This document shows, piece after piece, positions 37,099 to 54,581 of a stretch of 64,000 bases of DNA. Under the pieces are notes generated by a model. It ran no database searches and was not told the origin of the DNA. It was given only the letters and a program-made list of their open reading frames with translations. Position numbers and translations under genes: made by a program. Within the stretch, counting starts at the first letter, position 1; every line of letters begins with the position of its first letter. Source of the stretch: Dipodascopsis uninucleata var. uninucleata (taxonomy: Eukaryota; Ascomycota; Lipomycetes; Lipomycetales; Lipomycetaceae); contig JAJLTO010000013.1 in NCBI GenBank assembly GCA_030568195.1, forward strand, positions 1 through 64,000, written 5' to 3'.

Positions 37099-39460
37099 CT
37101 AGAACATAGGCCTTCCGTTACTGCTGTGTTCAAGATTCGGGAGGTCTGTTGAAAATACGCTACCTTCACCTGATAAGTGAACATCAGTACCGTTAGCAAG
37201 TGGTACAAGCTCTAGATTGCTTGTGCTGCTTGACTCAATGGTTGATTTGTCATCCCATGGCATCATGCGCCTGTTTGTTGTTGGTTCCGTGTAGTTTGAT
37301 TGAGCCAGTGGCTCATAATCGGTCAAAGCAACGCCTATGTGACTTGGTGTCAAAGAACTTCGTGAAGTCTTTGCATCCATAGAATAATCTGTCATCTCGT
37401 GACTCTCTGCCAACAAACTAAACTTCGATTCGCTGGCAGACTTCATCGTACCGTCGTTCTCTACATCCTTTCTCTTATTAGGATTCTTACTGAAAAGAGA
37501 TATAAGCGCATTGATGATAATCAGAATTGCCAGTAAGCAAGTCAAAACAGCCTGAACTATTATCAATGCAATACCGACAGCGGTAGTTGTCTCTTGAGAT
37601 ATACCAAGCTCTTCAACAAAGACCAATATACAAACTAAAGATATAACACGAACAACAGATATAATACTGTTCACTATATTTCCGGCTCGAGTATTGAATG
37701 GTCGCAAAACTAGCAATGCAACGACAAATATAGTTTCTATCGCAATTTGTCCAATAACCTGAACTAGACCATGTCCGTCCGCTAATGCAATGAATGCGCT
37801 TCTACCGAATGATACTAAAATGGCAGGAACAAAAAACCACCAGAATCGAGTCTTAAATTGACCGTAAAATAAGCCGTAAACTCGAATCCAAGGCTTGTGC
37901 CGATATAATTCATCAATGTTTCCATCCCGATAACTCCGTTTTGCGAGAAGGAAGATTCGTATTGAATATATACTAATAATAGACGTTATAATACCAAGAA
38001 TTACTGCTGCAATTACCAATGTAGCCCAAGAATCACCTCTTTTGAATTGATATAAACAATATAAAACCCAGGTACCATACAGAATAACAATTGTACGCAC
38101 GATCGTTGATCCCAAAAAAATCCAATATCTCTGACGAAATGACTCTAGAGACTTTGACAATGTTCCAAACTGTGCAATCACCTCTAGAGTCAATTTGAAA
38201 AGGAGAATTGCTACGATGATTACTCCAATAATCATCGCAAAAAATAACAAAACAGTCATGAAGACATTAGCATCAGGAATCATCAAATGCTCAGCATATC
38301 TTGCAAGGCCGTAAACCTCTTCAAGTATTGTGTCTGAAGAGCTACTTGTAGAATTGCCACTAGACTGAGAAAGGTCAACACCGTCGAAGACAAATCTACG
38401 TAGAAGCTTTGAAGACGAAACTTCTGAAGAGCTTGTATCCGTGCTGCTAAGAAGAATAAGAGCCCCGCTACCATAATCAAGAATAGTAGTCCGTTGAAGT
38501 GTCTCCCACGAGCTTAACGTAGTATTTCCTCCTGTCTTGGCTCTAAATGAGTCAATAGACTTCTGCATCGCAGGCCAGGAGATGAAAGCATTTGCCCAAC
38601 CAAAATTCTGAGAAAATGATTGATATACTGTTGGATATGTTATTGAAAGCATTCCATTCATAGCCATACTCTGTGTCCAGCCTATGACATCTCCCACTCC
38701 AGGAGTAGTACCTGAATAACCACTAGCAGCTGCACCAGAGCTGGCCATGCTTGAAACAAAGTAAATCGAAGTCGCACCAAGTGCTATTGCAGCTATTCCA
38801 GCAGAGGCGTAGGACACAGATTTCATTTTAGTTGTCTTTCCATTAGTGATAGATGACTGGAAGCAAGCAATTTCCTCACCAGAATCAGAGTTGTTCAAAG
38901 TCAGTCGAGCATAACCATCAAGATCCGGGATAGCGAAAGCAATAGAAGGAATTTGCTCGGCATAATTGTTTGGAATATTGACAGTACCCTTTGCCGAAAA
39001 AGTCTTGTCTGCTGGCAAGGGGCAAATTCCCTTTATACCATAGTCGCAAGGATCAAAAGAGTATGTAAACACCGTTTTTCCATATGCATTCACAGAAAGA
39101 GAAGCTAAAGGAATAGAATTGGGAGTAAGCCGTTGTTCAACAATATAATCATGTCATTTGTATGTATTAATACTGCGCACGTCACGACAGCCATAACAGG
39201 AATACCTGCTCTAGGTAGCAACATCCAATACCAAATATGCACTCACCTGTAACATTTTGCTCTTTTGTCGACGTTCCCGAAAGATCAAAAGTAACGTTCT
39301 GCGTTGACTTTGAGTATGACACGTCAAACGCATTAATTATTATACTTGCATTTCCCGAATCGCAAGTATAGAGTGTTGTAGAGCTGATAGTATCTGATGC
39401 ACTTGCTGATCTCCAAAAGGAGGCGAGAGCAAGACCTACCGCTATTCGTGCCCACCTCAT
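37099..39460 (-). CDS. TRP-like channel with ML-like domain (Flc/Pkd2 family)
   Basis: Predicted 739 aa, exons 39460-39247 and 39104-37099. The 142-nt intron has donor GTGAGT and acceptor CTTTAG and joins EQNVT to ASLSVNAYGK. A signal peptide (about 1-22) is followed by the lumenal ML-like domain (about 23-165; YTCDSGNASI, PSIAFAIPDLDGYARL, GEEIACFQS). A long fungal TRP region follows with eight or more hydrophobic segments and a Ser-rich cytosolic tail. Yeast Flc1-3 are linked to FAD/haem transport into the ER and to calcium; fission yeast Pkd2 is a plasma-membrane calcium channel. Which function applies is unknown. Confidence 0.85.
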
Positions 39461-40463
39461 GTTGTAGAGGTATCCAACTCTTCAGGTGACAAAAATATGT
39501 TGTCTACTTTAAAAATTCCTATAAATCTCAATCCAAGTTAACAGCCTTGAGATGTTATCAGAGAGGAGTCCAAACTAGAGAAGTCAGTATTTCTCTTTCA
39601 AGGGATATAAAAATAGGTATTCGTAACCCCCCTAAAAAAGCTACACTCTCTTATGGTAACTGTAAAATAATGTGTTTCCAATGTAGCCGGACACGCTTCT
39701 TGAGCCACTTTCCGTCACTTTCTCCAAACTAGATCTATAATCTAATTTAAGATCTCTCCGACTAAGTAATAGTATAGATAAATTTAGTGCAGGAATTTTT
39801 TAAACGCATCACGAACCGCTATTTAATGACCAGGTATCATGCTGCGGTGAGAATGTACCTTAAATCTATTTTTAATCTAATTTGAGTGACTTATTAAATA
39901 TAGTATTGTTATACCCACATGCGGCTTGGTGCGTTCCTGAAACAAGTTCTTTATATCACGTGCGACATCTCGCTTAATCTCATAAAACTTTCATTATCAT
40001 TTAGGGTATAGCCCTACTATGGGAAAATGCAGTCACAGTGCTGAATTATAACCGAAGCCTAGCGCTCTATAGTCCACTGAATGAGAATTGTGTGAATACC
40101 AATTCTACATTGGAAAATACCTTAAATCTACTGTTAATTTTCTCTCTTTTTTGATTGCTAGTCAATTCAGCTTCACCTTTACAACATATTTTAAAAGCAG
40201 AATCCGTTGACCGGAGTACTTTCCTATAGAATCTAGAAAAGTGCAGAGATGGTCAGTATTAATTCTTTTTATTTTGTCATATAGCAGGGATATGAATTTG
40301 AAGTGTCAACCTTTTCGGCCTGAACTTTGAATTCGTCGCAATTTTTTAGTAATAGTGATAAATCCATTATTCTGAGTCGTATAAGAGTACATTTATCATT
40401 TCCGTCTCACTACTTGGAGTTGCGTTGTTCTATATGTACGAATTTTGATACTAACTATTTATT
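39461..40463. promoter_or_regulatory. Divergent region: TRP-like gene and RPL30 promoters
   Basis: About 1 kb. The RPL30 side holds an ordered motif set at 39955-40037, about 430 bp before the ATG. That distance suggests a long 5' leader or an intron in the 5' UTR, which I cannot place. Confidence 0.55.
39955..40037 (+). promoter_or_regulatory. RPL30 promoter module: Cbf1-, Tbf1/HomolE- and HomolD-like sites
   Basis: ATCACGTG at 39955-39962, TTAGGGTA at 40001-40008, AGCCCTAC at 40010-40017 and CAGTCACA at 40030-40037. CAGTCACA is the exact HomolD box known from fission yeast ribosomal-protein promoters. AGCCCTA fits the Tbf1 consensus ARCCCTA and resembles HomolE. The same order occurs upstream of ubiquitin-S27a. 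Confidence 0.65.
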
Positions 40464-40933
40464 ATGAAGGCTCCAAAGACAAAGAAATCACAAGAATCTA
40501 TCAACTCCAGACTTGCTCTCGGTAAGTACTAGAAATAGTATTATTGTATTGGCGGCTGTTTTACTTAGAGTAAATCCAGAGAGCTAGGATACCTAAGTTA
40601 TAGGCGGCTGTAGAGCATAGGTTGCTATGAAATAAATTTGCTAACGGCTGTTGTCTTGTAATAGTCATCAAGTCTGGAAAGTACAGTTTGGGCTACAAGT
40701 CTACTTTGAAGGCTATCCGAAACGGGAAAGCAAAACTTGTTATTATTGCTGGTAATACACCGCCACTTAGATCGTCTGAGTTGGAGTACTATGCGATGCT
40801 TGCTAAGATCAACGTTCACCACTTCCAGGGAGGAAACAATGAACTTGGTACAGCAGCTGGTAAACTCTTCCGAGTTGGTGTCCTTTGTGTCATTGATCCA
40901 GGTGATTCCGATATTCTGACTACTCTTGCTTGA
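40464..40933 (+). CDS. RPL30: 60S ribosomal protein eL30
   Basis: 108 aa, exons 40464-40521 and 40665-40933. The first exon codes [19 protein letters not shown]; the second begins [19 protein letters not shown]. The remainder is canonical eL30 ([47 protein letters not shown]). eL30 is a kink-turn RNA-binding protein of the large subunit. In budding yeast it blocks splicing of its own pre-mRNA through a kink-turn. Here the 143-nt intron is longer than most in the window and contains three CGGCTGT copies, so similar control is possible but unproven. Confidence 0.95.
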
Positions 40934-41067
40934 GAATATGTATAAATTTGTTCTGTTTTTTTTTTTGTTCATAAAAGTTAGCAATAATAAAACTGTATAA
41001 ATGGACCATCGTACTTTGTTCGGAATTTTAGGATGTGGCATTCAGTGTGGCTTTTTGTCTGAGATGT

Positions 41068-41105
41068 TTCACGTGACTGTAGTGCATATGTGGCTGTCAC
41101 GTGAA
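41068..41105. promoter_or_regulatory. Paired CACGTG sites in inverted repeat
   Basis: TTCACGTGAC at 41068-41077 and its exact reverse complement GTCACGTGAA at 41096-41105. RTCACGTG is the binding site of Cbf1-type bHLH factors. Confidence 0.6.
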
Positions 41106-41230
41106 GCTGCACGGCCGTCCTGACCTTCATCTCATATCTAAATGACGTTTTGAAATCTTAACTACTACTAAACACTAATGACTAGGTTATTTCTAAATGC
41201 AGGCCCCGGGAAACAATTGTAAGGAATGAA

Positions 41231-41238
41231 TATAAAAG
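41231..41238 (+). promoter_or_regulatory. TATA box of the small repeat-protein gene
   Basis: TATAAAAG 164 bp upstream of the ATG at 41402. Confidence 0.55.
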
Positions 41239-41401
41239 CCCTTGATATCCCTAACATATCTTAAGGATATTTTCATTATAATAAATTATAGATCTTTATA
41301 TTACCTGTGTATAGTAAAGCGAGCCCTCAAGGATCTCCAATCAAGTAATCTTACATTTATTAGAATATAAAGATCAACTTTTCAATTCGAAGACATTAAT
41401 A

Positions 41402-41821
41402 ATGTGTTTGATGAGAGTTACACCAGAACGAGAGATCTATGATGAAGGAATAGTAGAGGCTCCTGCTATTATTAGAACTTCACCCAGAAGTAGTCGTCAC
41501 AGTCACTACAATCCTGGTTTGACTCAATACGTCGAACATGCGTCTGCTGTTCAGCCCGTTGTTGTGAGATCTGGTCATTCTTTGCATGAGCCGGTCATAG
41601 TAGAGTCTGGGCATCACCACTATCGTCATCCTAGTCACGAATATCGCCACTCCGGGAGTGTTTACAGTCCCGAGCGCCTCTCTGGCGGTGTTTATGTTCC
41701 TGAGCGACGTTCAGGCAGTCTATATGCTCCTGAATACCGATATGAGCCACGGGGCTCGTCCGCAAGTTTCGCTGACGGATATAGGGCTGGGCAGGCAGAG
41801 GCGGCCCGCAGATACTACTAA
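41402..41821 (+). CDS. Small His/Tyr/Ser-rich protein with internal repeats
   Basis: Intron-free, 139 aa, family not recognised. It starts MCLMRVTPEREIYDEG, then becomes rich in His, Tyr, Arg and Ser. Residues about 83-115 contain three near-repeats of the form S-[VL]-Y-x-PE (SVYSPERLSG, GVYVPERRSG, SLYAPEYR). The C-terminus is SFADGYRAGQAEAARRYY. There is no signal peptide or membrane segment. A clear TATA box, paired E-boxes and a uniform frame support a real, possibly stress- or stage-regulated gene. It could instead be a structural or disordered protein of narrow distribution. Confidence 0.6.
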   Translation: MCLMRVTPEREIYDEGIVEAPAIIRTSPRSSRHSHYNPGLTQYVEHASAVQPVVVRSGHSLHEPVIVESGHHHYRHPSHEYRHSGSVYSPERLSGGVYVPERRSGSLYAPEYRYEPRGSSASFADGYRAGQAEAARRYY

Positions 41822-42609
41822 GTGTATCTTGTACCATGAACTGAGTAGTTGTGGTTGGGTTATAAAGACGATGTGAGAGACTGACATAAGTTTTCACAGA
41901 TGTTAGTGAATGTTTTTCCGTCAGTCTCTGTAGTTTAGCTATCGCCAATTGTGTTATGTGGTTAGTCCAAATGTCATCACATTTGACTACAGCTGGATTT
42001 GATTATTATTAACTAGATATTAAGTTACTATAGTTCGGCGTTGGGTGGCAGAGAACAGGCTTGACAAATACATATCTTTATACTATGTTAATGGAATTTC
42101 TGTCTTTTTACTGCTATAAGTGCCGTTATTTAATTTATAAATTTTCCAAGGTATATTGGACGATATGAAATTATAGATGTATAACCAATATTGTTTGATT
42201 TTAATTTTTCGTAATATACAGTTAATATAAAAAAGGAAAATATAAGAGAAATTCAGAAAAATAAAACCCATTTAGACACTAGTACACTTCTCAAGTTTCA
42301 GAGAACCAAGAACATATAACATTTTGAAGACAAAGAAAGACACAGGCACCGAATAAAACATAAATAGTGTATAAACATAAACATCTCCGGTTTCACTAGC
42401 ATAGTCGAAACTTATTTCTTTAAAAATATTCCATTACTTGTACACGACCTCATAAAGACCCACCAGCTCGCACTTTGTCACACTGTTCCGTTCCACTGGC
42501 GAGAAATGCCAGTCGTAAAATATGCACCACAAGAAAAGTAGCTACACAACCAAATAAGATAGGTAATCATTCAAACTTACTTCCTTTGCAATTTTATTGA
42601 GAATTCTAG
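41822..42609. other. Convergent 3' region
   Basis: 788 bp between the small repeat protein and the C2H2 gene. AT-rich; a 62-codon minus-strand frame there is low-complexity and was rejected. Confidence 0.45.
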
Positions 42610-43563
42610 CTATCTTTTAGACATGAGCTCTCGTTCCAGGTAAGTAATTCTATTGTCTGATCTATTCAAACGATCTTCAAATTCTCTAATCTTATCTTCG
42701 AGGCCCCTGACATAGTTCAGCAAAGTCTCTTCTATTCTAGACGACTGTTGACCATAGCCACCAGATACTTGAATGTAAGATTGCCCACCTGTCTGCATTG
42801 CCCCTTGATGCTGTTGTGAAACACCAGTTGAGCCTGCTTGTTGCTGTTGAAGAAAGGCATTTGCATTGTGAGACGACGACGTAGGCATCAGGTTAAATTG
42901 CGCAGAATATAAGCCAGGAGCCTGCGAACCACCTGGCGCAGTGCCAGTTTGATATGTATGAGGAAGAGGTGACAGAAGTCTTGGAGACTCCGAGACAGCT
43001 TGTGAGAAGCCTTGTCCGGCATATATGCTCTTAGACTGCTGATTCCCAACTTGATTACCATTCTCGGACCTGCTTGATGTTATTGTTTGAACCTTTCCAG
43101 AATGATCTCCTTGTCTACTCCGAATTTCGTCTCCACCTGTTCCTTCATCCTCGCTATTTTCACCATCTGTCCTCCCAACACATCCATTAGCACCTTTTCC
43201 ATGTCGTGCTAAGGCATCACCTCGCGCAAATCGGCGGCCACATTTTTGGCAAGCGTAAGGTTTCTCTCCTGTGTGTAACTTAGCATGTCGTTTCAAATCG
43301 TGTAATCGACGAAATTTCGAGTTGCACGTCGCGCAAGTAAAAGGCTTCTCATGCGAGTGCGTCAATAGATGTGATTTGAGGTTGTGATGACGCGTAAATG
43401 ATTGATTGCAATGAGTGCACGTATGTTTGCTCCCGGAACTAGGTGTTCCTGAAGATGTTGCGCTTACTGCACCAGCACTTCCTGCGCCTCCAGCGCCACC
43501 TGTAGAGGTAGCATTCGCAGTTGGCGATGGTGTGGATGTTTGCAAGCTCCCTAAAAGCGACAT
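42610..43563 (-). CDS. C2H2 zinc-finger transcription factor
   Basis: Intron-free, 317 aa. After a Ser/Thr/Gly/Ala-rich N-terminus come three tandem fingers at about residues 47-128. Finger 1 is CTHCNQSFTRHHNLKSH, finger 2 is CATCNSKFRRLHDLKRH and finger 3 is CQKCGRRFARGDALARH with a GANGC end. Linkers are EKPF and TGEKPY. The combination HHNLKSH / RRLHDLKRH / ARGDALARH marks a conserved ascomycete subgroup whose exact target I do not know. A Gln/Ser-rich middle follows, and then a C-terminal coiled coil (YVRGLEDKIREFEDRL), which suggests dimers. It probably binds DNA as a nuclear regulator. Confidence 0.88.
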   Translation of the reverse strand: MSLLGSLQTSTPSPTANATSTGGAGGAGSAGAVSATSSGTPSSGSKHTCTHCNQSFTRHHNLKSHLLTHSHEKPFTCATCNSKFRRLHDLKRHAKLHTGEKPYACQKCGRRFARGDALARHGKGANGCVGRTDGENSEDEGTGGDEIRSRQGDHSGKVQTITSSRSENGNQVGNQQSKSIYAGQGFSQAVSESPRLLSPLPHTYQTGTAPGGSQAPGLYSAQFNLMPTSSSHNANAFLQQQQAGSTGVSQQHQGAMQTGGQSYIQVSGGYGQQSSRIEETLLNYVRGLEDKIREFEDRLNRSDNRITYLERELMSKR

Positions 43564-44171
43564 TTCATTCAGTAACCACTAAGCCAATAGCAATAACCGG
43601 TAACTTATTTATTTAAAAAAGTAAGACCTCGTACTCTTAGAGCTATACTGTACTATTAACGAAAATGAAAAATTGACGCGAGAAAACGCTTTTATTAGTT
43701 GGCGGAAGAGAAATAATTGCGAAAATCAAATGTGGCAGGAAACAAATGGCGGTGCCAGGCGGTGAAGGCTGTATTATATGGTAAGACTAAGCATTCACTC
43801 TTGCACCGCCTGATTACGCCACCGCTGCCTTATGTGACTGGCTAATCATACCCTAAACTGTTGATCATATTTATTAGGGGTAATTTACAGCTAACCGTAA
43901 TAATAAGGATTTGTACCCTGTAATGCTTAAGGGTATTGTGTATATAGTTTGAAAGACGCGTCCAATTCAATCAAAGTTAAGGGGACCATCGACAGAAGAA
44001 ATTTCAGAATATTCTCAAGTGAGAATCGAGAGTGACCTGTAATCTGCTTATAACTTTCCTCTCGACAAGGAAATATTCTGGATATCATCGATATAATTCG
44101 CACGATCCCGATTAGTAGAGAAACTTAGAAGCTACTATATATTTCAACTGTTAATAGCGATATAGATTATC
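43564..44171. promoter_or_regulatory. Divergent promoter: C2H2 factor and CCT6
   Basis: 608 bp. GGCGGTG occurs at 43748-43754 and 43758-43764, with inverted matches CACCGCC at 43804-43810 and CACCGC at 43820-43825. ACGCGT lies at 43956-43961. The GC-rich cluster stands out from the AT-rich surroundings and sits 185-262 bp before the C2H2 start. Confidence 0.6.
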
Positions 44172-46120
44172 ATGTCTTCAGCAGTACAGCTTCTGAATCC
44201 TAAGGCAGAGTCTTTGAGGAGAAATCAGGCTTTGTCAGTTAACATAAATGCGGCACAAGGCCTTCAGAACGTACTGTCAAGTAATTTGGGCCCTAAGGGT
44301 ACAATTAAGATGTAAGTTTGATGAACTTATTGTAGCTTGAAAGAGAAATTACTAGATGTTATGTGCAGTTTATGGGCGTTATATCAACTGCGACAACGAT
44401 GATTCTAACAGCACAATTGTTTGATTTATAGGTTGGTAGATGGTTCTGGCAACATTAAGTTGACAAAGGATGGAAAGGTGCTCCTGTCTGAGATGGTAAG
44501 TACATATGTTATCGTTGGAATGATGACTCTGCCTATGATACTAATATTATGCTGACAGCAAATAACAAATCCTACTGCTGTCATGATCGGTAAGTGAGAA
44601 GAGCTCTGTAGCTTATCAGAAATAATAAATATGATCGAAGATTATAAGGCTTATACTAACTGGTTGTTTGACTATAGCTCGTGCTGCGACTGCTCAGGAT
44701 GAAATCACTGGTGATGGTACTACCACGGTTTGCTTGCTGGTCGGTGAATTGCTCAAGCAAGCTGAACGTTACATTGCTGATGGACTACATCCTAGAGTGA
44801 TAACTGAAGGATTTGATATAGCAAGAAAAGAAACTCTGAAGGTAAGGTTGAAGTGGTAATTACATAGCGAATTTTATAATCCTAACTTCTGATATTCGAA
44901 TTTTACAGTACTTGGATTCGTTTAAGGTAGAAAAGGAAATGGATAGAGAGCTTCTACTTGCGATTGGGCGAACCTCTTTGAACACTAAACTGAACCATGC
45001 AATTGCTGAGACTATCACTCCTATTGTTACAGATGCTGTATTGGCAATTCACAGTCCTCCAGAGAGAGTTGATCTGCATATGATTGAAATCATGAAGATG
45101 CAGCACCAGACCGGTATCGAGACAAGTCTAATTAAAGGATTGGTGCTTGATCATGGAGCTAGACATCCAGATATGCCTAAGAGAGTTGAGAATGCATACA
45201 TTCTTACCCTTAATGTTTCTTTGGAATATGAAAAAAGTGAGGTTAACTCAGGCTTTTTTTACAGTAATGCTGAGCAGAGAGAGAAGCTGGTTGAAAGCGA
45301 GCGAAAATTTGTTGATCAAAAGTTGAAGAAGATCGTTGAACTTAAGAATGAAGTTTGTGGACTCGACGGTTCTAAGGGATTTGTAATTGTTAATCAAAAA
45401 GGTATTGATCCTCTTTCTCTTGACGTTCTTGCAAGAAATGGCATCTTTGCTCTCCGAAGGGCTAAGCGCAGAAATATGGAGCGACTCCAACTTGTGTGTG
45501 GTGGCGTTGCTCAAAACAGTGTAGACGATTTGTCTTCAGATGTCCTCGGATTCGCTGGTCTTGTCTACGAGCAAACTCTTGGGGAAGAAAAATATACCTT
45601 CATAGAGGAAGTTAAGAATCCCAAGAGTGTTACTATTTTAATCAAGGGTCCAAATGCACATACAATGAGCCAGATTCAGGATGCCGTTAGAGATGGTCTT
45701 CGAAGTATCGTGAATGCAATGACTGATAAATGTGTTATTCCCGGTGCAGGTGCTTTTGAAATTGCATGTGCAAATCATCTAAGTGGTGACTTCCTTAAAA
45801 AGGAAGTCAAAGGTAAACTAAAAGCAGGCGTTCAGGCTTATGCAGATGCTTTACTGGTAATTCCAAAGACTCTTGCTACCAACGGAGGTTTCGATATTTT
45901 GGATACTTTGAGTTTATGCCAAGATGAACTTACAGATGGTCACATTGTTGGTATTGACTTATCTTCTGGAGAGCCAATGGATCCAATGATTGAAGGAGTG
46001 TATGACTCGTTTAGAGTAGTCAGGAATGCTGTAGCATCTGCTACTTCTATCGCTTCTAATCTCCTTCTCTGCGACGAACTTCTTAAAGCAGGTCGTTCGT
46101 CATTGAAGCAACAGCAGTAA
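44172..46120 (+). CDS. CCT6: CCT/TRiC chaperonin subunit zeta
   Basis: Predicted 536 aa in five exons: 44172-44311, 44432-44495, 44559-44589, 44678-44841, 44909-46120. Phases agree throughout. Group II chaperonin motifs: [14 protein letters not shown] (zeta type), [19 protein letters not shown]-like [19 protein letters not shown], the ATPase loop [10 protein letters not shown], and [10 protein letters not shown]. Exon 3 is only 31 nt. With seven sister subunits it forms the cytosolic folding ring for actin and tubulin; prefoldin 3 in this window delivers the same clients. Length is normal. Confidence 0.95.
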
Positions 46121-46824
46121 TATGTTATACTATATATGCTAATGTAATGTAATATGGTTCAGTCGATCTTTTGATATTTCTACTATTTAAAAGCTATGCA
46201 CAATTTAATTATATTGTCTTGTAAATGAATGTCTTATCTCGTACCATGTACAAGTTCTTGTGTACCTCTCTGAAAGAAAGCATCTGCATTTATGTACCGC
46301 ATATTGCGAATATTAGTCTTACGATGATCTTGAAAAGTGCGTTTTTAACGGACTTTAGTAGATTGATTTATAAAAGGCGACTTTGTCTCTTATTACCATA
46401 TAACAAAATACTAGTGGTATTTTAAACTATGTAATGCCCGTATTTTACAAAAAAATAACCGTAAAACAAAAACCACAATTAACATTATAAGTTAACGGCA
46501 ACTATCATCTGCATTCAGCAATATGACTATTTTAGTCAATTCAATTGATTATAAAGTTACGTTTCGTAGCGCTATGAATAAGATTCGCTCAATCCATAGC
46601 TTTATTGTAAACATCAATCCTATCTATCGTCATTCTGTAATATTAGTCATACGCACTTGTAAATACATAATATAAACGTTAAAATTCTAATTTCCAGGAA
46701 GTCAGCAATAAAAAACTAATCTGATGGTATAGTTAGCTTGGCAAGAAAACTCGTCATTGACATTTAGAAACGTGAATATTCATGTAACCTAAGACGATTT
46801 ATCTCCTGATTTCAATTGTTTCGT
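46121..46824. other. Convergent 3' region
   Basis: 704 bp between CCT6 and the mannosidase gene. A 66-codon frame at 46225 has no supporting feature; otherwise AT-rich. Confidence 0.45.
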
Positions 46825-49800
46825 TTATACTGTTGCTGCAGTCACTGGCGATGGACGTAAAAAAGGGTGTGCCTCCGTGTTAAACACATAGTCATCCAAA
46901 GAGATTATACTAGGATCAGCAAATAATAGATATGCATATTTCAGCGTTTCTGCCATCCAGAAGCTCTCCATTTGATCCAGATACTCTATATGTTCAGAAT
47001 TTGTGACGTCACGTATCGCAGAATACGCAATTTCAGTTCTACAAAACTTGTTAATGGCACTGAACATTTCCCATCCCTTGTCTTGCCATTTTTTATCGCC
47101 CGTAACTCGATACATAATGAATATACTCTCCAAGGCTTCAGGTCGAAGTAGATAGCGACCATCCTGCGAAGTAAATGACCTTGGCTGGTCATACCAGCCA
47201 CCAACCTCCCATCTATCAGCCTCTGAGACTTCTTCGGAGACTTGCTTAACTTGCGACGCTTCATGCACTTGTGGATTTTCGATTGCACGAGGTGTGGAGA
47301 CGCCAATAGTTTCTTCATCGAGACTACTGTGACCTGCACCATTAAATAACACACTCTCTTCCTTCTCCATTATCTTATGAGGATCGCTTTCTTCCACTAT
47401 ATCAGACTGTTCCACAGGAGACACTCTTACAGTTGCATCCGGAACATCAAAATCAGCATCTCCAACACTTTGAGATTGTTTTGAAGCAATCTCTTGGTTC
47501 GATAATTCTCGATTCAATAGTTCATCGTTGTCCTTGATTTTATTATATACTTTCTCAGCTGGTGCGGACATATCTACTCCACCGACTCCTCCTTCAGTAA
47601 GAGAAGTCTTAGAAATGGTATCAGAATCAGAGCCTCCAGTACCACTAAATTCCTTTTCATCCTTATCATTATTGATTGCCTTCTCTTGAGCAAGATCGCC
47701 ATCGACGGTAGCTTTTGTATCTTTTTCGAAATCTCTGTCAATATTTAGATCATTGGGGTTCGCTGACGATTTATAGGAGCCAGTATCTGCGCCCATTATC
47801 GGCTCTGAGTTTATCTTATTAGGTTTTGTTTCCTTTTGGTTCTCTATCATTGCACTGCTCTCTTCCGTCTGCTTATCTAAATCTTTTGGTACGACCTTGT
47901 CATCCAACGGAACCTTGTGAGCATCCGTAGAGTCGACGACGACATCATCCTTTGTAACAACCGACTCTGATCGTATAGAGACTGTGGCTTCATCAGCTGA
48001 TCTGCTTTTTACTTGCCCATATCCAGAATTCATTGTCTTAATACTACCCATGTTCTTATTTGCAATAGGTTGCCCTTTTACTAGCTTAAGCGATTGGCCG
48101 GAATCAGAATCACTCGCATCTCCAACTACATCAATAGTATCATCTTCTTCAATCTCTTGTTCTGCACTACTGGTCAATCTATCAGTTGAATCGTAGACCT
48201 GTCGTTTATGCACACCGGTACTGCTAGCCACCTTCGAACTCCGTTGTAATGTTGATATTTCATCGTTATTTGGACCTACAGCCGTTGTTTCTGGCATAAT
48301 AGGAAGTACTGGTGCCTCAATATCCATCCAACTGCAATCAGCGGTCAGACACTCTCGTACATGAAAGTTTTCAGGCATAATCCCAGTACGAGTCTGATTG
48401 TATGCCCAATAGCAACCATCGGCAAGTTTCTGAGCCGTCACAAGATCATCCGGACGCTCAAGAACCTTAGCGCCAAGAGCATACATTCCTCCAATATAGC
48501 ACGTCAAATGAGTCATTTCAGGATCGAATTTTCTTTGACCACTCGCATCCAGTATAACGTTACCTGAAAACAAAATATCTGCCTGATCTTTGACCATTGG
48601 ACGATATATCAAGTTATTCTTGATAGATTCTATAGACATCAGATGCAAGCGCTTATATTGTTCAACCGTCCCTCCAAGTAACAGATACTCCTTTATAAAA
48701 TATTCATAAGTAGAGTCGCCCAGAGCACCTGCAGAAAATCTTCTAGATGACCTTTGGCGGTCTGATTCAGTAAGACCTTTAACTGCGACGCAAGATGGAC
48801 TAACAGGCTTAAAGTCAAGAGCAGATCTTATAAAAGCATCAGATTTTGATAGAACAAGCTTTGCTCTTTCAGTAGAATCAGTGCTAGGTACTATTTGTGA
48901 GTTGACAGCATCATAGTCAATGCCAACTTGAGAGTCTCGTTTCTGAAGCTGCTGCATATTAACGTCTTGACTAGTTTGCTGTTGCTGCTGTCTCACAGAA
49001 TTCCTAGTACCCGTGCTAGTAGACATTGCTTTGTCTTTAATAGTATTGGCGACTTCACAGCCTGATATATCCATTCTCAAGGGCCATAATCCTCTTATTG
49101 GCGACTCTCTTTCAGATTCTTCTAACAGATCTGTGATATGCTGAATGGCACTGTAAAAAGTGTCATTTCCCGTTATTTGGGCCAACCTAGTAAACTCCAG
49201 AGATAGAGAGCCGAATTGAGCCAAAATCTGAAAGGCACCAGCTCGCAGTTTGATGTCACTGTGAGCTAACTTTGGATCATAAAATAAAACTGGAAGACCA
49301 TTGGGTGTATCGAAAGCTCCTAGGAGAATATTAGCCAGTTCGACGGCCTTTGTCAGGAAGATTCTATCCTTGTTCGGCGATAGATCATATGCTGATATAA
49401 GACCGCCAAGATATCGAATATTAGTCTCAAAAACAGGTATGCTCGGTAAGCTCATTTTTCTGAAGTCTATGGTCTCTAAAAAGGCTTTCGCGTCCTTCAA
49501 CTCTTCGTCAAAACCCATTATTATCAAGGTATCAAGAGCGTCTACGATGGACGCTCCCCATCCTCCGAACGAGTCAGAATACTTGCCACTAACAGGACGA
49601 ACTTCATCATGTCCCCAGGCATACTTCTTATAGCCGCTCCAGGAATGATTAAAAGCTTCTTTTACAGCTACAAGTCTTGCCTCACGCTCTGCATGTTGCT
49701 CTGCTGTCTCTTCACCAAAGGAACCTTGAACTTTAGCTAAGGCAATAGGTGGCTCCTCCGGCAACTTGATCGCATCAGAAATGGGAAAATTAACCTTCTT

Positions 49801-50310
49801 AGGGTGATTGAAGACCTCTTCAGTGATTGAAGAGGGAGTAGCAATGATATTTTCCTTGCCTGTCTTATCATCGGGACTGTACGTGCCTTCATAAGATTCT
49901 AATGTCGCACCTTTCGATCGCATCGCACCCTCCGGTCTACCGAACTTGTGGATCTGCTGCGATTCTCTATCTTGCTCTTTTCTCTCCAAGTTACTATCAT
50001 CGTCAGAATTTCCTTCTATAGACGTGATCTGCTCTGCATTACTCGCTGCGCTTTCGGCTCCATAATTAGTTACACTAGCTGATACAGATTGTGACAAATC
50101 TTCCGCCACACCCTTTTTTAGTTGCGTTAACTTGAAGCTGTCGGTGGTTGTATAATCGCTTTCCTGTCTAGGATCCTCGACAGAACCATCAAAGAATTTC
50201 TGGTGCACAACATGTTCCTCTGAAGTAGAGGTTGATAAGTGATATACCAGAAGTAACGACAGAAAAGCGAAAAGGATTAGCCATCGATAACGTCTTGAGC
50301 GAAGTAACAT
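46825..50310 (-). CDS. GH47 alpha-mannosidase-like membrane protein (Mnl2-like), with large insertion
   Basis: Intron-free, 1161 aa. A type II signal anchor (about 9-26: WLILFAFLSLLLVYHL) is followed by a disordered stem to about residue 215. The catalytic (alpha/alpha)7 barrel then begins: YAWGHDEVRPVSG, FGGWGASIVDALDTLIIMG, PVFETNIRYLGGL (acid residue), MTHLTCYIGGMYALG, LRPEALESIFIMYRVTG, DQMESFWMAETLKY and the calcium-binding NTEAHP near the end. Known catalytic and calcium residues look present. Between about residues 660 and 1030 the barrel is interrupted by an acidic, Ser/Asp/Glu/Lys-rich stretch. Relatives trim mannose from ER glycoproteins for quality control; the exact reaction is inferred. 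It may be ER or Golgi. Confidence 0.85.
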   Translation of the reverse strand: MLLRSRRYRWLILFAFLSLLLVYHLSTSTSEEHVVHQKFFDGSVEDPRQESDYTTTDSFKLTQLKKGVAEDLSQSVSASVTNYGAESAASNAEQITSIEGNSDDDSNLERKEQDRESQQIHKFGRPEGAMRSKGATLESYEGTYSPDDKTGKENIIATPSSITEEVFNHPKKVNFPISDAIKLPEEPPIALAKVQGSFGEETAEQHAEREARLVAVKEAFNHSWSGYKKYAWGHDEVRPVSGKYSDSFGGWGASIVDALDTLIIMGFDEELKDAKAFLETIDFRKMSLPSIPVFETNIRYLGGLISAYDLSPNKDRIFLTKAVELANILLGAFDTPNGLPVLFYDPKLAHSDIKLRAGAFQILAQFGSLSLEFTRLAQITGNDTFYSAIQHITDLLEESERESPIRGLWPLRMDISGCEVANTIKDKAMSTSTGTRNSVRQQQQQTSQDVNMQQLQKRDSQVGIDYDAVNSQIVPSTDSTERAKLVLSKSDAFIRSALDFKPVSPSCVAVKGLTESDRQRSSRRFSAGALGDSTYEYFIKEYLLLGGTVEQYKRLHLMSIESIKNNLIYRPMVKDQADILFSGNVILDASGQRKFDPEMTHLTCYIGGMYALGAKVLERPDDLVTAQKLADGCYWAYNQTRTGIMPENFHVRECLTADCSWMDIEAPVLPIMPETTAVGPNNDEISTLQRSSKVASSTGVHKRQVYDSTDRLTSSAEQEIEEDDTIDVVGDASDSDSGQSLKLVKGQPIANKNMGSIKTMNSGYGQVKSRSADEATVSIRSESVVTKDDVVVDSTDAHKVPLDDKVVPKDLDKQTEESSAMIENQKETKPNKINSEPIMGADTGSYKSSANPNDLNIDRDFEKDTKATVDGDLAQEKAINNDKDEKEFSGTGGSDSDTISKTSLTEGGVGGVDMSAPAEKVYNKIKDNDELLNRELSNQEIASKQSQSVGDADFDVPDATVRVSPVEQSDIVEESDPHKIMEKEESVLFNGAGHSSLDEETIGVSTPRAIENPQVHEASQVKQVSEEVSEADRWEVGGWYDQPRSFTSQDGRYLLRPEALESIFIMYRVTGDKKWQDKGWEMFSAINKFCRTEIAYSAIRDVTNSEHIEYLDQMESFWMAETLKYAYLLFADPSIISLDDYVFNTEAHPFLRPSPVTAATV

Positions 50311-51204
50311 TGCGACTAGATTCTCGTCTCTTGTCGACTACCTTCCCTTCTATAACGTATTCTCGCTATTTGACAATTAGATAATTATATAGATATCTTT
50401 ACCTTTCATGTATGAGTACTAATGATGGGAATATAAAAGTGTATAAGAGATATATGAACTGCGAGTAATATTCTCCTGCGTGGGCGTCTCTAGCATCAAC
50501 GGTCGTATTCACAGTTTGTGCCTGATGCCCAAGACAGTGCTGCAGAATGAAGAGTGACCTAATTCCATGTGCGGCGTTAAACAAAACTCCTCAAATTAGG
50601 AGGCTGTATTCTGTGACCAGTGCAACAAAACGCTGGCTAATGAATAAATTAGAATCGACAGCTTTGCAGTTACACAACTTTATTTTAGCCCATAATCTAC
50701 AATAGGCGATTACTAATTTCTTATATAGACGGCTTTGAATACCACTATTTTACACTAATTTTATGATCATAATTTTGTTAGAATTATCCATCATAAGATA
50801 GATCACTGTATACCTTAAACGATAAATTTCGGAACTTTAGTCAGTTAGATTTTACACGCAAACCTATCTCTATATATTTGTTTATATATATTATCGTTGC
50901 CTGGAATAAATCGAAAACTTAACTTACATTGTATAAAAGTATATCTCATCTTCAAGCATTACTGCCTTGCAAACGCACCAGGTCTAAAATCGAATTCTCA
51001 TCTCAAATGTTTTAATAGATAAATTTTCTTAAGTCGAAGCAATTACGACATACATATATTAAATACACTACAAATCTACAAGCAACTAATATAAATATAT
51101 CCAATATATTACTATCTAACCTTCATACACATATATAGCATACACAATATATAGGAAAAGATAAAGGCTCGATTCATCAGACAATACTCTCAGATGTGGC
51201 TAAA
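50311..51204. other. Intergenic between two minus-strand genes
   Basis: 894 bp, extremely AT-rich toward 51000-51200. It covers the mannosidase promoter and S27a transcript end. A 61-codon frame at 50399-50584 was rejected. Confidence 0.45.
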
Positions 51205-51777
<573 letters not shown>

Positions 51778-52457
51778 CTTGACAAACGACTAGTCCGCAA
51801 AAAATCTACACAGTAGACTGCTACAAATATAAATTATTAGTAGCCGTCATTATATTTTTCATCTTGTGCAAAAAATCACTTTGTTATATAAACAACTTAC
51901 CTTCTTTCTGGTCGATCGAGTCAGTGAGTAACAAAAAAAAGAAAAAAACTATGTAAAATCCTCCATATGATATACCTACCGTACTGACCTGTTTTAGTTG
52001 ATGAGAGCTTTAGCCCTGCATTGCGTGACTGCTATATACAATAAAGGAAAGAAGCGTTCTACAGAACGTAAACCCTAAGGTAATGTAGGGCTATAAATAT
52101 CACGTGATTAAATACGTGTTTTTACAGCTATATTTAAGATGGATCTTATGGTACGCTATTACTGCGAGCAAACGAGAAAAGACAGTATAAATAATAAAAA
52201 TCGGTCATTCGCTAATGTCTTAGACGCTTGATAATTTAGAATATACTCTCTGATTAATACTAATTAAGGCTTTCTATTATTGTATAAATGAATCAATCGG
52301 TTCACTACTCCGATGTCCACTGTAGGGTACATACATATAGATACGCGAAGTCCCAACTGGTTGTAATTAAATGTGATATCTGAGATCGTATACAATATTA
52401 AGTCGCATGATAGTTCATACATTTATATATTATCCGCCTTAGAAATAGATAGACAAA
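51778..52457. promoter_or_regulatory. Divergent promoter: ubiquitin-S27a and proline iminopeptidase
   Basis: 680 bp. The S27a side (read on the minus strand) holds the motif module at 52024-52108. The part near the S27a start is T-rich on the coding strand. Confidence 0.6.
52024..52108 (-). promoter_or_regulatory. S27a promoter module: Cbf1-, Tbf1/HomolE- and HomolD-like sites
   Basis: Read on the minus strand in order toward the gene: ATCACGTGAT (52108-52099), AGCCCTAC (52092-52085), TTAGGGTT (52078-52071) and CAGTCACG (52031-52024; seven of eight HomolD bases). The last is about 250 bp before the ATG. Order and motifs match the RPL30 promoter. Confidence 0.65.
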
Positions 52458-54581
52458 ATGACAGTTGCTGTGTCACCCGTGGATTCATACAAAGTTCATG
52501 GTAATTCACGATTAGCTGCTGTCGTATTTCAAAAGTCGAAGAGCATACTAATATATATATATATGCAATCGAGCAGGTCTTGTAGTCGAGGAGTATGTGT
52601 TCGAGTGTCCGTTAGACTACCTTAAACCTGATTCTAAGGTTATTAAAGTATTCGCTCGAAGAGTCTTACCCTCTGAAGATACTGAAGAGGAGGGCCGCAA
52701 GAGACCTTACAGTGAGTTTTGGGTATATATGCGATTGAGAGGGATGCTAAGGAGAGGAGTAAGAGGTTTATTGTGTTCAAATGGTGCTGACAGCTTTATA
52801 GTCGTTTATTTACAGGGTGGCCCGGGTTTTGAATGTACGTGTTTACGGAGTAATATTTCTCCAATTTTTGCTTATTGTTTCTATTAGGCGATCCTCCATT
52901 GTCAAAATCTGGGCGTACCAAAGAGTTGATAGATAGAGGCTACCAGATTCTTTATCTGGATCAGCGAGGTACTGGATACAGCACACCTGTCTCTTATGCA
53001 ACCTTGAAGACCTATGGGACCGACGCGGAAAAGGCAAATTATTTGTCAAAATTTCGAGCAGATAATATTGGTTGGTTACAAAGGACTTGTTTTTATAACG
53101 GGGTGTAGCTAATTTTCTACTTACAAGTACGAGATTGTGAAGAAATAAGGCATATGCTACTCAAGGATTCTGTCGACAAGAGGTGGTCTTTATTGGGACA
53201 GTCTTTCGGTATGGTTATTCTAATATAAATAATAGGGGATATGAACTCGTTGACTCATGGTGTTTGACGTAGGTGGCTTCTGTGCTGTAACTTATCTCTC
53301 TTTCTTGTGAGTAGCTTCGCAAGTTCTCTTAAGGTAGCAAGGAAGTATCTAACAAAAATATAGTCCTAATAGTCTCAAAGACGGTTCGTGATTTCAACAG
53401 AAGTTGCTTTTAGACATTGTATGTGAGAACTAATGTTATTCAAATAAGTTCTTATAACTGGTGGTGTACCTCCGCTTGTGAATAACCCGGACGCGGTATA
53501 CAAAGTTCTATATGGTACGAATGAATCAAATTGTCTGATAATATACGGTTCTAACTATCATTAAAGGACGTGTTATTAAGAGGAATAGGGCGTACTATAA
53601 GAAATTCCCCAATGATGTCGCTAAAGTGCGAAAGATTTTAGACTTCTTGAACAGAAATCAGGTAGTTCTACCAAATGGTGGTAGATTGACACCCGAGAGA
53701 TTTCAACAATTCGGACTCGATTTCGGACGTCATACAGGCCTTGACGTTGTGCATCGTATGTTACTGAATGATACTGGATATTTAATTTTGCCGTCTAATG
53801 AATCCTCTAGAACTTGTGTCCAAGGTGTACCATGACTTGAGTCAGTTTAATGAGATCACATATAGTACAAAGAGTCAGATTCAGTTCGCTCAAAGTTTTG
53901 ATACTAATGTGCTATATGCATGTATGCATGAAGCTATATATTGCCAAGGGTCGGTGACTATTTGGCGCTCTTCTGAACGATTTATGTAATAAATTGATTT
54001 GGTTTGTTAATGTGATAGAAACAGGGAAGCAAGCGCATGGTCGGCAGATCGACTGCGACTCGAATATAAAGAATATTTCTCGTGGGAAACGATCTCTGCT
54101 TTGGATGAGCAGAGCGCTGTGTATTTTACTGGCGAAATGGTATATCAATTAAGAACTCTATTCCTTGACATTAAACTTGTTTGATTCTAACGTTTATAGA
54201 TCTATCGGTCGATGTTCGATGACTACGCAGAACTCAGAGGACTTAAAGGTGCTGCTGAAGTTTTGGCTATGAAAAGTGACTGGCCCGCATTATATGACAT
54301 CCCAACACTTGAGCTCACAAAAGCCCGAGTATCTGCAGTTTCGTAAGTGAAGGGAAGTTTTTAGTTCTGCTATGTCAATTATAAAGCATAGACTAACTAG
54401 GATATCGATTAGGTATTACAATGACATATATGTAGATTTAGATCTCTCCGTAGAAGCAGCATCTCACATACGAGACTGTAGACAATGGGTGACCAGCGAG
54501 TTTCTTCACAATGGTCTTACTGTTAATCCGAACAAAGTCTTAGGCGAACTATTCCGGCTTCTTGAAACAGACATCGAGTAA
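52458..54581 (+). CDS. Proline iminopeptidase (peptidase family S33), 13 exons
   Basis: Predicted 449 aa from exons 52458-52500, 52577-52711, 52802-52834, 52888-53070, 53128-53208, 53273-53306, 53364-53383, 53449-53514, 53567-53755, 53811-53949, 54025-54139, 54200-54342, 54413-54581. All phases agree. Family motifs appear across junctions: VFECPLDYLKPDS, YLQGGPGFEC (oxyanion loop), YLDQRGTGYS, the nucleophile elbow GQSFGG, LITGGVPPL, and a C-terminal FLHNGLTVNP with the likely catalytic His. The enzyme removes N-terminal Pro from peptides in the cytosol. The donor after 53949 (GTCGGT) is unusual but is the only one that keeps frame. Twelve introns in 2.1 kb is the highest density in the window. 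Confidence 0.88.

Follow-up and report, generated by a model that had tools for sequence, protein, structure and literature searches.

HomolD and T boxes at ribosomal protein promoters of the Lipomycete Dipodascopsis uninucleata, with a Cbf1-type E-box at a minority

The window analysed here is a stretch of 64,000 nucleotides of Dipodascopsis uninucleata var. uninucleata (assembly GCA_030568195.1, contig JAJLTO010000013.1, positions 1 to 64,000), and it contains two ribosomal protein (RP) genes, RPL30 and the ubiquitin-S27a gene. Upstream of each lie a Cbf1-type E-box, a CCCTA-type box (T box), an inverted T box and a HomolD box (Table 1). A first-pass annotation, made from the letters alone, had placed these motifs at the two promoters and read the three main ones in the same order toward the gene; positions and common order both hold.

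Table 1. Promoter motifs and genes of the RPL30 and ubiquitin-S27a loci (positions in the window)
Feature	Positions	Strand	Basis
ATCACGTG, Cbf1-type E-box, RPL30 (accessory)	39955..39962	+	sequence read
TTAGGGT, inverted T box, RPL30	40001..40007	+	sequence read
AGCCCTAC, T box (Tbf1/HomolE-like), RPL30	40010..40017	+	sequence read
CAGTCACA, HomolD box, RPL30	40030..40037	+	sequence read
RPL30 gene (eL30)	40249..40933	+	exons as read 40249-40251, 40470-40521 and 40665-40933; joined, one open frame
ATCACGTG (palindrome), Cbf1-type E-box, ubiquitin-S27a	52101..52108	-	sequence read
AGCCCTAC, T box, ubiquitin-S27a	52085..52092	-	sequence read
TTAGGGT, inverted T box, ubiquitin-S27a; closest T box to HomolD (gap 40 bp)	52072..52078	-	
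CAGTCAC, HomolD box, ubiquitin-S27a	52025..52031	-	sequence read
Ubiquitin-S27a (RPS31) gene, with intron	51205..51777	-	translation as read; ATG 51777-51775, TAA 51207-51205

The spacing of the motifs is unequal at the two promoters. At RPL30 and ubiquitin-S27a, respectively, ATCACGTG and AGCCCTAC are 47 and 8 bp apart and AGCCCTAC and CAGTCAC 12 and 53 bp, and the inverted TTAGGGT lies distal of AGCCCTAC at the former and proximal of it at the latter. Within the window, AGCCCTAC has 2 matches against a shuffle mean of 0.77 and ATCACGTG has 3 against 1.45, two of the three being one palindromic place, while CAGTCAC has 13 against 5.85, an approximately two-fold excess reached in none of 100 shuffles. 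Single motifs say little in the window, and evidence for more than chance comes only from the regulon-wide test.

The start of RPL30 has features of its own. The gene seems to begin with an exon that holds only the ATG (40249-40251); the intron that would come next (40252-40469) has the 5' splice site GTCAGT and the branch site TACTAAC. The RNA around this start (40204-40258, +) can be folded into two stems with a purine-rich internal loop of 2+5 nucleotides; the 55-nt fold has -14.6 kcal/mol and a z of -2.1, with 6 of 200 shuffles equally good, and a 71-nt fold has a z of -1.2, with 27 of 200 equally good. L30 of S. cerevisiae has an autoregulatory kink-turn, which the predicted fold resembles. 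An rpl30 motif is described in 26 fungal species (PMC5640933); Rfam gave no match in window positions 39000-53000. Two inverted copies of CACGTG, about 30 bp apart, lie just 3' of RPL30 (41068-41105), before a frame at 41402. A third T box/HomolD pair of the window (43834-43855, +) is upstream of a gene (42610-43563, -) whose sequence resembles C2H2 zinc fingers, and this pair may be a chance occurrence because its HomolD box has no A-rich G/A flank of the usual kind.

The regulon-wide test was carried out on the genome of D. uninucleata (16.2 Mb, 25 contigs), a member of the class Lipomycetes of the Saccharomycotina according to the NCBI taxonomy. RP genes were located by protein similarity to joined S. 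cerevisiae RP sequences, which found 45 of 49 (16/17, 14/14 and 15/18); the queries S26, L37, S29 and L33 gave no match, and L33 turned up later through its module. Each query that matched did so at one single gene. The sample of 50 comprises these 45 genes, located without use of any motif, together with RPL30, ubiquitin-S27a and the motif-found RPS20, RPL25 and RPL17. The identities of RPL25 and RPL17 are backed by Pfam; the first-exon frame of RPS20 had no Pfam support, its identity being a reading of the translation. A set of 46 with 1.2 kb of upstream sequence holds the 45 and ubiquitin-S27a, and leaves out RPL30, RPS20, RPL25 and RPL17. The analysis as a whole covered all but about 23 of some 79 expected RP genes. 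Upstream distance was counted from the first matched exon; it therefore takes in introns and gives no exact distance to the ATG. A uL2-like gene (L045), interpreted at 38% identity as a mitochondrial relative, was removed before counting, as were additional exons of genes present in the set. In 8 of the 50 genes the fetched stretch has a second CAGTCAC; in these cases the copy that has a T box distal to it was used, and this biases the counts toward the stated order. Sites of Rap1, Mcm1, Dot6, Rim101, RRPE and Cbf1 were scanned as consensus strings.

CAGTCAC is found, in either orientation, at all 45 RP genes located without a motif and at 50/50 of the full sample, and RCCCTA/TAGGGY lies 3-60 bp gene-distal of it at 43/45 and 48/50, respectively. 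In the 1.2-kb regions, HomolD is present in 46/46 against a mean of 4.4 (maximum 11) in 100 shuffles, and the distal T box-HomolD pair at 8-60 bp in 43/46 against a mean of 0.15 (maximum 1). A proximal pair, with the T box at 2-60 bp, is found at 10 of the 46 promoters (shuffle mean 0.2). The nearest T box is distal in 42 and proximal in 3 of 45 promoters, and within 66 bp of HomolD there are 61 distal and 8 proximal T boxes; P0 and S13, the two genes outside the 43/45, have a T box 3 bp proximal of HomolD. The regulon-wide excess is thus overwhelming for the CCCTA box and CAGTCAC, and the E-box departs from chance by its position only, in a minority of promoters. The first-pass annotation is supported in this respect: CAGTCAC(A) is a HomolD-like element found generally, with a CCCTA box before it, and a scan of the other RP promoters finds both enrichment and order for this part of its module.

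HomolD has an A-rich flank, AAAA(G/A)CAGTCACA, and the base after CAGTCAC is A in 41/50 and G in 7/50, so that A or G follows in 48/50, as in the fission-yeast octamer. The T box has the consensus TAGGG(T/C)(T/A), or TAGGGYW, and is split evenly between GCCCTA (24/48) and ACCCTA (24/48). Gaps to HomolD range from 3 to 60 bp with a median of 22, and a fixed spacing is not established. A rule of relative orientation is ruled out, the two boxes being on the same strand in 24/48. Helical phasing is not significant for the nearest gaps despite their clumped look (best period 9.7 bp, p 0.09; 10.5 bp, p 0.06) or for all gaps (9.8 bp, p 0.22; 10.5 bp, p 0.23). The tandem HomolE consensus ACCCTACCCT, scanned as CCCTACCCT, occurs in 0/50 RP zones.

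The divergent genes RPL2 and RPL42 adjoin each other within about 0.6 kb (C5:336187-336793; L028 and L066), each with HomolD and T boxes of its own. The promoter region of RPL17 (L004) is common to a divergent gene read as fibrillarin (NOP1), and this one module may also serve a gene of ribosome assembly.

The combination of T box and HomolD was searched for in the whole genome with four patterns, one for each strand combination, in which 8-38 bp separate the two boxes; the reversed patterns served as control. The patterns have 31, 27, 15 and 29 matches and the controls 15, 11, 14 and 11, giving 102 matches, some overlapping, against 51. Known RP promoters account for 56 of the 102, including 7 rows of six RP genes first recognised through the same patterns, and the 46 found elsewhere are at background level. 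The third pattern alone has no excess (15 against 14), though RP promoters hold 6 of the 15. Among ten non-RP genes named by query (TEF1, ACT1, ENO, PGK, TIF1, two TDH, FAL1-like, eRF3-like and ARP-like), HomolD is found at 2, the T box at 2, the module within 60 bp at 0 and the E-box at 0; at TEF1 HomolD and the T box occur together, with 74 bp between them. When 13 unassigned modules were fetched, six proved by Pfam to belong to cytosolic RPs (L36, L6, S10, L20, L33 and S12). The other seven comprise MRP-L20 and DUF2015, both by Pfam, and, by names read without Pfam, NAT3-like, SMC2-like and CFIm25-like genes, one coding frame and one unassigned; the NAT3-like gene had no Pfam match. The first motif scan had two non-RP matches, one inside a coding frame (L003) and one upstream of a frame read as Whi5-like (L006). 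The module at MRP-L20 (L101, C5:657840-659500) stands before the gene of a mitochondrial ribosomal protein, which is either an extension of the regulon to mitochondrial ribosomes or a chance match.

Three Rap1 consensus strings, matched as plain strings and not as a weight matrix, occur in 0/50 RP zones. In 267-bp zones, none of the strings for Mcm1, Fhl1, Dot6, RRPE and TATA shows enrichment over both controls (TATA 11/50 against 9.0 expected), and Rim101 strings are depleted (0/50 against 4.9 expected). The word CACAAC, often CACAACGCC, is found strand-specifically 41-91 bp downstream of HomolD at 12 of 46 RP promoters, for example those of S8 (L016), L16 (L033) and L12 (L046), and its reverse copy occurs once within 250 bp of HomolD. 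A transcription start or initiator would be expected at about this position.

Very probably, the RPL30 and ubiquitin-S27a sites are copies of one general RP promoter, made up of a HomolD core, a T box activator and an optional E-box. The presence of the boxes, their order and their specificity for RP genes are direct observations. The HomolD box AAAA(G/A)CAGTCACA is probably the core-promoter element, and one or more TAGGGYW boxes on its gene-distal side probably act as upstream activating element; the Cbf1-type E-box would be an optional extra at about one promoter in eight. The core-promoter function, the assignment of factors to boxes and the co-regulation of the genes are predictions from sequence.

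The genome has genes for Tbf1, Cbf1, Rrn7 and Fhl1. The Tbf1 gene has a TRF domain at 255.8 bits and a Myb match at 23.5 bits, just below the cut-off of 24.4, and has relatives in Lipomyces species and Dipodascopsis tothii with 56-60% identity over 72-77% of the query. The Cbf1 gene has an HLH match, the Rrn7 zinc ribbon scores 42.7 bits against a curated cut-off of 27.1, and an Fhl1-like gene has a forkhead match, accompanied by an FHA match in an adjacent frame at that locus. Of the 20 contig ends that were read, six (L069, L071, L079, L081, L083 and L086) carry the telomere repeat TTACATAGGG, a 10-base unit. Binding of a telomere-type Myb protein to the T box is favoured, short of proof, because TAACCCTAT, part of this repeat, occurs in 7/50 RP zones and in 0/122 background windows. 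A Myb factor of the TRF/telobox kind probably binds the T box, with Tbf1 the most likely and Fhl1 a possible candidate. The same promoter anatomy with Fhl1 in place of Tbf1 on the T box, Tbf1 then being mainly a telomere protein in this organism, agrees with the presence of the Fhl1-like gene, and in the account of fission yeast given in PMC10253590 it is Fhl1, not Tbf1, that has been demonstrated to bind HomolE, in vitro. However, the T box matches the telomere repeat of the same organism, the tandem HomolE form is missing from all 50 zones, and the Fhl1 strings of budding yeast are unenriched (GACGC 9/50 against 8.6 expected, TCYGCCTA 0/50). Occupancy by Fhl1 is rather unlikely, though it deserves serious consideration beside Tbf1.

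The E-box behaves differently from the other two boxes. CACGTG is present in the 1.2-kb regions of 5/46 RP genes, which equals the shuffle mean of 5.3, and 41/46 regions have none. Its placement is another matter: ATCACGTG lies 45-147 bp upstream of HomolD at 6/50 promoters, RPL30 and ubiquitin-S27a among these, and it is found in 6/50 distal zones against 0/266 background windows. TCACGTG, on either strand, occurs in 7/50 upstream stretches, 46-146 bp from HomolD in S0, S1, S11, S14, L30 and S31, and 790 bp from it in the seventh, L10. Without RPL30 and ubiquitin-S27a, ATCACGTG is found in 4/48 zones against 0/122 background windows (p=0.006) and TCACGTG in 4/48 against 1/122 (p=0.023); the looser RTCACRTG has 9/50 against 0/122. 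The E-box is real in place and optional in number. The first-pass annotation had proposed an ordered Cbf1-Tbf1-HomolD module, of which the T box-HomolD order is upheld and the Cbf1 part lacks general enrichment, even though its copies near HomolD are placed non-randomly. As a general grammar of RP promoters in this fungus the three-part module agrees with the occurrence of all three motifs at RPL30 and ubiquitin-S27a and with the placing of the E-boxes, but with CACGTG at shuffle level it is highly improbable and is rejected as the general rule. A mere coincidence, in which frequent short words happen to stand together at the two promoters, agrees with the near-chance frequencies of AGCCCTAC and ATCACGTG alone in the window, but is refuted for the T box and HomolD by the counts at independent RP genes and can be dismissed almost entirely, although single E-boxes may be due to chance.

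Within the budding yeasts, the Lipomycetes are the earliest lineage to split off, and an "ancestral or transitional" state of the regulon, as suggested in the first-pass annotation, would fit this placement and the 0/50 count of Rap1 strings. Lipomycetes might then have kept a nearly complete pre-Rap1 RP regulon of HomolD and Tbf1 box, with Cbf1 at about 12% of genes and upstream of the T box, a tentative reading that falls somewhat short of an even chance. If it is true, the place of the E-box upstream of the T box is where a Cbf1/Tbf1 regulon could have grown from, and the take-over by Rap1 came after the split of the Lipomycetes, not at the base of all Saccharomycotina. The RP regulon is the standard case in which the output of a gene set is kept while its regulators are exchanged, and a near-uniform HomolD plus telobox without Rap1 strings provides a clean outgroup state for dating the take-overs by Rap1, Mcm1 and Cbf1, and is useful for rooting the evolution of the regulon. 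Since each RP query found a single gene, the replacement of TATA by HomolD and Rrn7 can be tested outside fission yeast without duplicates.

The promoters resemble those of fission yeast. In S. pombe, the HomolD octamer CAGTCACA/G is described, in either orientation, at every RP gene studied; it replaces TATA, depends on the Pol I factor Rrn7, which is TFIIB-like, and has the start site 39-52 bp downstream (PMC10253590). As in that account, each RP gene of the sample has a HomolD box, CAGTCAC in one orientation or the other (with A or G next in 48/50), a CCCTA-type box in either orientation lies upstream of it, and the gap is short and variable, 35/48 lying in the 0-32 bp range of fission yeast (PMC10253590). 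Unlike in S. pombe, the T box is single, gaps reach 60 bp and an E-box is added at some promoters; the T box is also near-universal (48/50), whereas HomolE is described at only some RP genes of S. pombe (PMC10253590). The T box appears to be HomolE-like and not HomolE proper, because the tandem form CCCTACCCT is absent from all 50 zones. GCCCTA, one of its two forms, is also reported at RP genes of Neurospora crassa and Aspergillus nidulans (Tanay et al. 2005, as cited in PMC10253590).

The RP regulon of Candida albicans is described as a Tbf1/Cbf1 system (PMC2834713). Similarly, a Tbf1-type box stands at most RP promoters of D. uninucleata, at the level of sequence, and a Cbf1 box at some, but the constant partner here is HomolD, and the Cbf1 box is not a general RP element, with CACGTG at shuffle level. 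S. cerevisiae RP promoters are described as using Rap1, Fhl1 and Ifh1 (PMC2834713); D. uninucleata shares an Fhl1-like gene with S. cerevisiae and differs in having no Rap1 consensus string in the 50 promoter zones. The telomere unit TTACATAGGG has the same length as the unit TTAGTCAGGG of Yarrowia lipolytica (PMC6746865). As text, one of six 10-letter words of the repeat occurs in 98 papers, and by their titles those among the matches listed look unrelated. In separate literature searches, no title or abstract start among the matches listed named RP promoters of Lipomycetes. A survey of 162 fungal genomes describes Rrn7-, Tbf1- and Cbf1-type RP motifs, the Rrn7 motif coming from Arxula adeninivorans and the Tbf1 motifs from Ascoidea rubescens and S. 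japonicus, so that both parts, HomolD/Rrn7 and Tbf1, are already known from budding yeasts or their kin (PMC6173580). According to this survey, Pezizomycotina and Saccharomycotina inherited Cbf1 from an ancestor in which it was gained, and the minority of E-boxes here fits this; it places the gain of Rap1 at the base of all Saccharomycotina, from which the 0/50 count of Rap1 strings, by string match only, departs (PMC6173580). The D. uninucleata system is the HomolE/Tbf1-HomolD kind of RP regulon, already known and here seen in a Lipomycete.
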